A DNA stretch of 25,075 nucleotides from positions 1 to 25,075 of the forward strand of contig JACPHL010000212.1 in assembly GCA_016188625.1 (NCBI GenBank), given 5' to 3'. Below the pieces are notes generated by a model. It was not told the DNA's origin, ran no database searches, and worked only from the letters and a program-made list of their open reading frames with translations. The translations under genes were made by a program, and so were the position numbers. Source of the stretch: Candidatus Rokuibacteriota bacterium (GTDB taxonomy: Bacteria > Methylomirabilota > Methylomirabilia > Rokubacteriales > JACPHL01). The number at the start of each line of letters is the position of its first letter. Positions within the stretch are counted from its first letter, which is position 1. Positions 2 to 21,045 of the stretch are shown one piece after another.

Positions 2-7642
<7,641 letters not shown>

Positions 7643-18365: not shown

Positions 18366-19892
18366 ATGATCAAGGCCGGAGAGATCAGCGAGATCATCAG
18401 GCGCCAGATCCAGGGGTACGAGGCCGAGCTGGACCTCCAGGAGGTCGGGCGGGTGATCGAGGCCGGCGACGGGATCGCCCGGGTCTGGGGCCTCGAGCAG
18501 GCCATGGCCGGCGAGCTCATCGAGTTCCCCGGCGAGGTCTACGGGATGGTCCTGAACCTCGAGGAGGACAACGTCGGCGCCGTGATCATGGGCGACGACC
18601 GGGGGATCCGCGAGGGGGACGCGGTCAAGCGCACGGGGCGGATCGCCGAGGTGCCGGTGGGCGAGGCCCTGATCGGCCGGGTGGTGAACGCCCTGGGGCA
18701 GCCCATCGACGGCAAGGGGCCGATCGAGACCGGGGAGACCCGGCCGATCGAGCGCTACGCCCCCGGGGTGGTGGACCGCCGCCCCGTCAAGGAGCCGCTC
18801 CAGACCGGGATCAAGGCCATCGACGCCATGATCCCCATCGGCCGCGGCCAGCGGGAGCTGATCATCGGCGACCGGCAGACCGGGAAGACCGCCATCGCGG
18901 TGGACACGATCATCAACCAGAAGGGGCAGGGGGTCTACTGCTTCTACGTCGCCATCGGCCAGAAGCGCTCCACGGTCGCCCAGGTGGTGAAGGTCCTCGA
19001 GGAGGCCGGGGCCATGGAGTACGCCACCGTGATCTCGGCCACCGCCTCGGAGCCGGCGCCGCTGCAGTACATCGCCCCCTACGCCGGGTGCGCCATGGCG
19101 GAGTTCTTCCGCGACTCGGGCCGCCACGCCCTCTGCATCTACGACGACCTCACCAAGCACGCCCAGGCCTACCGCCAGCTCTCCCTCCTCCTCCGCCGCC
19201 CGCCTGGGCGCGAGGCCTTCCCCGGGGACGTCTTCTACCTCCACTCGCGCCTGCTGGAGCGGGCCGCGAAGCTCAACGACGAGCTCGGGGGAGGCTCGCT
19301 GACGGCCCTGCCCATCATCGAGACCCAGCTCGGGGACGTCTCGGCCTACATCCCCACCAACGTCATCTCCATCACCGACGGCCAGATCTACCTGGAGACC
19401 GACCTCTTCTACGCCGGAGTCCGCCCGGCCGTCAACGTCGGGCTCTCGGTCTCCCGGGTGGGCGGCAACGCCCAGATCAAGGCGATGAAGCAGGTGGCCG
19501 GGAAGCTCCGGCTCGACCTCGCCCAGTTCCGGGAGCTGGCCGCCTTCGCCCAGTTCGGCTCCGAGCTGGACCGGGCGACCCAGATGCAGCTCGCCCGCGG
19601 GCAGCGGATGGTCGAGGTCCTGAAACAGGGGCAGTACGCCCCCCTGGCGGTGGAGCAGCAGATCCTCATCATCTACGCCGGCATCCAGGGGCACCTGGAC
19701 GACCTCCCGGTGGAGGCGCTCGCAGGCTTCGAGCAGGCCCTCTACGCCCACGTGGAGGAGCGCCACCCCGAGGTCTTCGCCGAGATCCGCGAGAAGAAGG
19801 AGGTCTCGGACAGCCTTCGCGAGCGGATGGACAAGGCCCTCGCCGGGGCCAAGGCCGCCTACATGAAGGCCGAGGGGATCAAGGCGGGCTAG
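18366..19892 (+). CDS. atpA: F-type ATP synthase subunit alpha
   Basis: Non-catalytic nucleotide-binding subunit of the F1 head. At 508 residues it has the standard length. The Walker A is GDRQTGKT (168-175), and SVSRVGG (361-367) carries the arginine finger (Arg364) that reaches into the beta-subunit active site. The N-terminal [14 protein letters not shown] (6-19) is the helix that meets subunit delta. The ATG at 18366 has GGAG 4-7 nt upstream. Unlike all other atp junctions here, atpA is followed by a 283-nt spacer before atpG. Confidence 0.98.
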
Positions 19893-20175
19893 GAATGCGT
19901 CCGAATAAAGCGGTTGGGGGTGCTGCCCCCCGGCAGGCCCCGATGGGGGAGGTGGCGGTCCCGAGCGGAACGGTAAGCGGAGCGGCGCGGGTCCCCGTCG
20001 TGAGCGAGCCGGGTGGGGAAGCCGGCTCACGGGCTCAGAACGAAGGAGGAGGGGCCCTGCCCGGCGAGCCACAGACGGGGGCGCCGCGGAGCGTGTGGAG
20101 CGAGGGGCCGACGCCTCCCGCGGGGCCGTCCGAGGGGGGCGGAGCCCCTCGGCGAGTTGTCCAAGGGGCGCGCGC
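19893..20175 (+). repeat. Structured atpA-atpG spacer element, related to the gyrB-gyrA spacer
   Basis: This 283-nt GC-rich spacer interrupts an otherwise compact operon. It contains inverted repeats at 19916-19930 (GGGGG/CCCCC), 20006-20028 (GAGCCGG/CCGGCTC) and 20130-20152. The end next to atpG shares the GGGGGGCGRAGCCCC hairpin core and CGAGTKGTCCA with the gyrB-gyrA spacer, in the same orientation to the downstream gene. The internal block GGCTCACGGGCTC (20024-20036) also has a counterpart there, with 11 of 13 bases identical. No promoter or terminator stands out. I infer a dispersed repeat family; copy number elsewhere is unknown. Confidence 0.5.
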
Positions 20176-20179
20176 GTGA
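19895..20179 (+). CDS. Doubtful 94-aa ORF bridging atpA and atpG
   Basis: The ATG begins 2 nt after the atpA stop (TAGGAATG), and the TGA at 20177-20179 overlaps the atpG GTG as GTGA, the arrangement of coupled genes. The product is low-complexity (Gly, Ala, Pro, Arg, Glu), with no signal, TM helix or domain I recognise; its end, SEGGGAPRRVVQGARA, resembles that of the ORF in the gyrB-gyrA spacer. At this GC content open frames are common, and repeat sequence can look like protein, so coding is unproven. A role in keeping ribosomes moving through the spacer is inference. Confidence 0.25.
   Translation: MRPNKAVGGAAPRQAPMGEVAVPSGTVSGAARVPVVSEPGGEAGSRAQNEGGGALPGEPQTGAPRSVWSEGPTPPAGPSEGGGAPRRVVQGARA
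20130..20152 (+). promoter_or_regulatory. Hairpin upstream of atpG
   Basis: CCGAGGGG (20130-20137) and CCCCTCGG (20145-20152) are exact reverse complements with a 7-nt loop. It ends 23 nt before the atpG GTG; an AAGGGG site (20163-20168) lies between. It is the counterpart of the hairpin next to gyrA. Confidence 0.6.
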
Positions 20180-21045
20180 CCCTCCGCGACATCCGCCGGC
20201 GCATCCGCTCGGTCCAGTCCACGCAGAAGATCACCCGGGCCATGAAGCTCGTGGCCGCGGCCAAGCTCCGCCGGGCCCAGGAGCGGATCCTTCAGGCCCG
20301 TCCCTACGCGGCCAAGATGGCCGAGCTGGTCGCCGGGCTGGCCCTCCGCGCCGGCGAGGAGGGCCACCCCCTCCTGGCCCGGCGGGCGGGCGGGCGGCGG
20401 CTCCTGGTGGTCATCAGCGCGGACAAGGGGCTCTGCGGCGCCTTCAACTCCAACGTCCTCCGCGCGGCCCTCGCCTTCCTCCGGGAGGGCGGGGAGGCCG
20501 AGTCCTCCCTGGTGGTGGTGGGGCGGAAGGCCCGGGACTTCTTCCGGCGCCGGTCCTGGCCCATCCGGGCCCAGCGCGTGGGGTTCCTGGACCGCCTCGG
20601 CTTCGAGGAGATCCGGGAGATCGCCGCGGAGCTGATGGGGGTCTACCTGGCCGAGGAAGTGGACGAGGTCCACCTCCTCTACAACGAGTTCCGCTCGGTC
20701 GCCGTCCAGCGGGCGGTCCGGCGCCAGCTCCTCCCCATCCAGTCCGAGGGCGCCGCCCCCGAGGCCCCGACGGCGGACTACCTCTACGAGCCGTCCCCCG
20801 GCGCGATCCTGGCGGCCCTCCTCCCGCGCCACGTGGAGGGCCAGCTCTACCGCGCCCTGCTGGAGTCCCTGGCCGGGGAGTACGGGGCCCGGATGACGGC
20901 CATGGAGGCCGCCACCAAGAACGCCCAGGAGATGATCGAGCGCCTGACCATCGACTACAACAAGGCCCGGCAGGAGCGGATCACCAAGGAGCTCCTCGAC
21001 ATCGTCGGCGGCGCCGAGGCCCTCCGCAAGAGCGCCGCAGCCTGA
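20176..21045 (+). CDS. atpG: F-type ATP synthase subunit gamma
   Basis: Rotating central shaft of F1. The GTG at 20176 gives 289 residues starting MTLRDIRRRIRSVQSTQKIT, the expected first helix, which continues into RAMKLVAAAKLRRAQ. The C-terminal helix has MTAMEAATKNAQEMIERLT and ends in ITKELLDIVGGAEAL, also typical. The frame is open 27 codons further upstream to a GTG at 20095, but that part lies in the repeat-like spacer and is not gamma sequence. AAGGGG stands 7 nt before the GTG. atpD follows after 12 nt. Confidence 0.95.
   Translation: MTLRDIRRRIRSVQSTQKITRAMKLVAAAKLRRAQERILQARPYAAKMAELVAGLALRAGEEGHPLLARRAGGRRLLVVISADKGLCGAFNSNVLRAALAFLREGGEAESSLVVVGRKARDFFRRRSWPIRAQRVGFLDRLGFEEIREIAAELMGVYLAEEVDEVHLLYNEFRSVAVQRAVRRQLLPIQSEGAAPEAPTADYLYEPSPGAILAALLPRHVEGQLYRALLESLAGEYGARMTAMEAATKNAQEMIERLTIDYNKARQERITKELLDIVGGAEALRKSAAA

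Follow-up and report, generated by a model that had tools for sequence, protein, structure and literature searches.

Why does an ATP synthase operon of Rokubacteria carry 283 nt between the genes for its alpha and gamma subunits, at a junction that is normally short? The spacer (positions 19893-20175) lies in a contig of 25,075 nt, which we call the window throughout, meaning that whole stretch of DNA. It belongs to a MAG of 2.6 Mb in 344 contigs that is 84% complete, and its AtpG finds its best matches in Candidatus Rokubacteria, at 65-73% identity. An earlier note on the window had described the spacer as a long insert, and a comparison of the atpA-atpG junction among relatives agrees with this: in most Rokubacteria (L031-L033, L035, L036, L039, L041) the gap measures 9-18 nt and there is no insert. 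One other Rokubacterium (L034) has a longer atpA-atpG spacer as well, with the second half of a different element, B, at L034:2923-2995, which stands in the same orientation and ends 4 nt before the ATG of atpG. The junction thus holds elements of different cores in two lineages. The features of the window that matter here are the following.

18366-19892, plus strand: atpA (ATP synthase alpha), the upstream neighbour; TAG stop at 19890-19892
19892-19914, plus strand: left end module of the atpA-atpG element, TA followed by GGAATGCGTCCGAATAAAGCGG; compare the left end of the B element, TA followed by GGAGCCCGTCCGAGTAACGC
19895-20179, plus strand: open frame of 94 codons, ATG at 19895 and TGA at 20177-20179; judged incidental
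19915-19944, plus strand: small hairpin module, GGGGGTGCTGCCCCC-CGGCAGGCCCC
19945-20121, plus strand: A core, 177 bp, palindromic, with terminal complementary arms GGGGAGGCGTCGGCCCC / GGGGCCGACGCCTCCC (consensus)
20133-20161, plus strand: R end module, a slightly degenerate copy, AGGGGGGCGGAGCCCC-TCGGCGAGTTGTC; common to the gyrB-gyrA element
20176-21045, plus strand: atpG (gamma), the downstream neighbour; GTG start at 20176-20178 with AAGGGG upstream
3971-4119, minus strand: B element between gyrB and gyrA; its R end (4005-3978) adjoins the ATG of gyrA

The insert is a composite of modules, and its left terminus is a CTAG that contains the TAG stop of atpA. A motif shared with the gyrB-gyrA spacer, GGGGGGCGRAGCCCC, had been noted earlier, and the window has exact matches to it at two places and no more, 20134-20148 (plus) and 3987-4001 (minus). 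Aligned locally, the two spacers match best over 30 nt (AGGGGGGCGGAGCCCC...CGAGT.GTCC), with a score of 35. Shuffled spacers score 23.3 on average (sd 3.0) and reach 35 or more in only 4 of 1000 shuffles, so that the similarity beats chance; an alignment no better than shuffles was one of the two outcomes that the earlier note had named as a refutation. As the best alignment spans these 30 nt, the similarity between the two spacers is confined to the R end module. The suggestion that both operons carry the same insert did not survive: the cores, A and B, are different, and only end modules are common to them, chiefly R. The R end consists of the GGGGGGCGGAGCCCCCC hairpin and then TCCGAG, and both families are built around it. 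The gyrB-gyrA copy, laid out as left end, core B and R end, has the best-preserved end module of the window. The complementary arms of the A core extend over ~16 bp, and the ends of the composite are alike over only ~5-6 bp (GGAGCC / GGTGCC). The small hairpin module is found on the same side in a few other copies (L005, L198), with similar ones in L020, L021 and L026. Two A copies of the same genome (L153:5565-5756 and G000:C277:6430-6576) are ~15 nt longer; the one at L153 resembles the long form of the relatives and may stand midway between long and short A.

Both spacers turned out to be repeated many times in their own genome, which was searched with each of them and with covariance models. 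The atpA-atpG spacer gave at least 40 copies (the best 40 of 295 candidates) of ~180 bp at 84-96% identity, and the gyrB-gyrA spacer at least 40 copies (the best 40 of 304 candidates) of a different family. The covariance model of core A found 67 matches, ~65 of them strong, and that of core B at least 138. These many copies bear out the idea of a dispersed element family that sits between genes, co-transcribed core genes included. By our estimate (67 x 177 + 138 x 150 of 2.6 million bases) the repeats make up at least ~1% of the genome. In this assembly many A copies were found close to contig ends, at most a few hundred bases away (e.g. C197, C202, C343, C62 and C333 of G000), so the repeats probably fragment assemblies of Rokubacteria.

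Across the order, the model of core B (R2) matched 57 of 59 genomes, many with at least 52 scored candidates. In a phylum-wide search only one of 35 genomes outside the order matched; these 35 double as a negative control for a GC-rich hairpin model, and they may be less GC-rich themselves. This sole genome (G076, of another order in the same class) has two B-model matches, the best with E 4e-8, for which transfer, contamination or chance are possible sources. Core A is found more narrowly: its model (R1) matched 9 of 60 genomes, which belong to three families. In those other than our MAG the form is longer, its tip varies, and there are 1-5 copies per genome. A search of Rfam returned no match to the element (the only match, E 0.89, was unrelated), and we rejected HEARO/IscB omega-RNA as the identity of the long A form, which had no Rfam match even at E<=1. 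No exact match to the R-hairpin pattern was found in viral contigs, and none to B in plasmids. The repeats share with MITEs their many dispersed copies of 100-300 bp and their lack of coding capacity. We consider it likely that the atpA-atpG spacer arose when an intergenic repeat, palindromic, modular and non-autonomous, was inserted there.

Where the copies stand was analyzed in ~335 kb of arbitrarily chosen contigs and in loci around matches, with gene calls from a home-made codon-usage caller. The sampled 335 kb held 30 element complexes, all intergenic except for overlaps with predicted gene ends, and none of the classified complexes lay in a divergent spacer. Convergent gene pairs were enriched for B (20/69 vs 15/279, p 2e-7) and more weakly for A (5/25, p 0.017). 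Among the classified A copies of the genome that lie between co-directional genes, 9 were sense and 10 antisense. Hence the same-orientation rule that had been proposed from the two operons does not hold, for A with these counts or for B with its enrichment in convergent pairs.

R ends were often found beside stop codons. An R end adjoined the stop codon of a gene reading toward the element in 62 of 107 cases, 35 of them at exactly 4 nt, the commonest distance, and 26 of the 107 R ends had a start codon at most 45 nt downstream. The stops beside R ends were TAG (30), TAA (21) and TGA (11), as against 191 TGA, 70 TAG and 33 TAA in the sampled genes, so that TAG and TAA together account for 51/62 vs a background of 103/294 (p 9e-12). 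Copies without a recognised stop have TA at the same offset in 29%, in a genome where TA makes up 0.94% of dinucleotides. In complete B copies TA stands at one fixed offset, at the left terminus in 19/55 and at the right terminus in 27/55. The left and right TA are not associated across copies (p 0.46), so that the paired ends give no significant sign of a target-site duplication and TA may be part of the element itself. The simplest reading is that TA forms the terminus of the element or is its target, with stop codons as the places where TA would occur and be tolerated. This suggests a TA-terminated repeat resembling MITE, BOX, ERIC and REP elements.

The same data might be read as a function at the 3' end of genes. 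The R hairpin after the stop would then act in the mRNA, in ribosome release or stalling, 3'-end protection or termination, and would be kept to tune the upstream gene. The prevailing distance of 4 nt and the enrichment of B between convergent genes fit such a role, as does the finding from E. coli that translation is lowered by REPs lying no more than 15 nt from a stop codon (PMC12306157). However, copies without a recognised stop have TA at that offset too, and the preference for TAG and TAA is explained by TA; about a quarter of the R ends (the 26 of 107) face a start instead. Selection at the RNA level should also give an excess of G.U over A.C pairs, yet B shows no clear one (G.T 61 vs A.C 50). 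Neither does the R hairpin look like an intrinsic terminator, with TTCCGAACC or TCCGAG following it, depending on the strand, and no U-run. We regard a function of this kind as unlikely.

Insertion of a TA-terminated repeat probably came about as follows. A repeat system has spread through the order Rokubacteria, with the atpA-atpG copy as one of its members, and its copies end at TA dinucleotides, mostly in CTAG. With TA so rare in this GC-rich genome, the tolerated sites are probably largely TAG and TAA stop codons, so that copies come to lie beside the ends of genes, whether these are convergent or part of an operon. Movement would depend on a trans-acting transposase that recognises the ends of the element, and selection would remove insertions inside genes. 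An effect on atpG, if any, would be indirect, as atpA and atpG are no longer closely spaced and their mRNA would form a stable hairpin. As to the mobiliser, Y1 (PF01797), DDE_3/IS630 (PF13358) and DDE_Tnp_1 (PF01609) transposases had no match in the 84%-complete MAG. Among the 59 genomes of the order 11 have Y1, with no visible relation to the copy number of B. We therefore did not retain mobilisation by a REP-associated Y1 transposase, nor, given the missing matches in the 84%-complete MAG, by IS630-like DDE_3 or IS4/IS5-like DDE_Tnp_1 enzymes.

Is the palindrome then kept as DNA or as RNA? Between families the pairing of the A stem is kept by two-sided changes (9 pairs, 27 cells vs 8.2 cells in shuffles). 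Within the A copies of our genome G.T exceeds A.C (64 vs 8 cells, or 16 vs 5 columns once one degenerate row is left out). This excess hints that one strand folds, but it may have its source in shared descent. The long A forms of the relatives have 33 two-sided changes and, in the best-aligned pairs, G.T 5 vs A.C 5. Two-sided changes without an excess of wobble pairs fit a palindrome at the DNA level better than an RNA under selection, and template switching that perfects the palindrome might be another source of such changes. As the excess of our own A copies is absent from B and from the long forms, selection at the RNA level was not retained as an explanation.

Different genera also share some intergenic sites of the long A palindromes, whose stems carry compensatory changes. 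Such palindromes were seen in the murG-murC spacers of four genomes (L204, L206, L215, L213), at L211, L216 and L220, and at L203, L212 and L219. They stand 13-39 nt before putative genes for murC, an acyl-CoA dehydrogenase and a glycosyltransferase in several genera, and one of the murG-murC copies is inverted (G039). These fixed loci, as far as sequence comparison goes, are the best hint of a site-bound role and could mean a site-specific function. One might go further and see in the element a structured regulatory RNA that works on the sense strand of the downstream mRNA, in the 5'-UTR of atpG, murC and others. The recurrent position before the same genes, with its compensatory changes, would agree with this, as would the G.U excess of A in our genome. 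A regulatory RNA is nevertheless very improbable in our view, since the orientation is not fixed (the 9 sense and 10 antisense copies, and the inversion at murG-murC), the long forms lack the G.U excess and Rfam has no match. It is also rather doubtful that the repeats have been adopted throughout the order as a gene-end module, in which R at 4 nt from the stop would control ribosome release, mRNA 3' ends or translation for many genes in each genome, and the long A forms would be kept at murG-murC and the other sites because they act there.

The geometry of the open frame in the atpA-atpG spacer had drawn attention before, and rightly so: its ATG lies 2 nt past the atpA stop, and its TGA (20177-20179) overlaps the GTG of atpG (20176-20178). 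This is what one might expect of a real gene, or of a translational coupler that links atpA and atpG. Against it, the coding score is -0.19 per codon (atpA +0.58, atpG +0.52), and an open frame is expected by chance: when the dinucleotides of the spacer were shuffled, 63% of the shuffles left one or more forward frames open. The A cores measure 176, 177 and 178 nt, so that no reading frame is kept across copies, and the B insert of L034 at the same junction has no such frame. The home-made caller did not predict a gene here either. A gene or coupler is thus hardly credible, and the peptide pattern to which the earlier note had pointed finds no support as a product. Most likely the frame is accidental; under the insertion that we favour, the frame and its overlap with the atpG start would be by-products of the low stop-codon density in DNA of 76% GC. 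The earlier thought that the insert tunes the translation of gamma finds no support in the relatives: most of them have no insert, and it is thus not needed for the stoichiometry of the ATP synthase or the dosing of gamma.

With the repeats, strong hairpins come to lie right where essential genes end. The same junction with and without an insert amounts to a genome-wide natural experiment on the spread of stop-adjacent palindromes and on whether they alter expression. When searching the open literature on Rokubacteria repeats, palindromic or intergenic, we found no description of them. Several known systems are related in kind. BOX elements of Streptococcus pneumoniae are modular, in many cases extend over the 3' end of a gene with its stop codon, and can have ORFs on both strands (PMC3049150). 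The Rokubacteria repeats are likewise modular, lie at gene ends and have ORFs, but they differ in sequence and host phylum, are GC-rich and order-wide, and favour one fixed distance from the native stops that they adjoin. ERIC, Correia (NEMIS) and RUP elements are non-autonomous palindromic intergenic repeats of 100-160 bp with TA at their termini, some with ORFs and some in co-transcribed operons (PMC2229807). Compared by description, the Rokubacteria repeats are similarly palindromic, intergenic and TA-terminated; RUP has an IS630 with matching ends, whereas our MAG has no match to an IS630-type transposase. Enterobacterial REP/BIME sequences are mosaic hairpin repeats that lie partly just past stops and between operon genes (PMC12306157). 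Their units measure 20-40 bp, in contrast to composites of 150-280 bp in Rokubacteria, and our MAG lacks the REP-associated Y1 transposase (RAYT). In conclusion, we class these repeats as a putative new family that resembles BOX, ERIC/Correia/RUP and REP in kind. For repeats of their kind, they are unusually widespread and stop-codon-associated.
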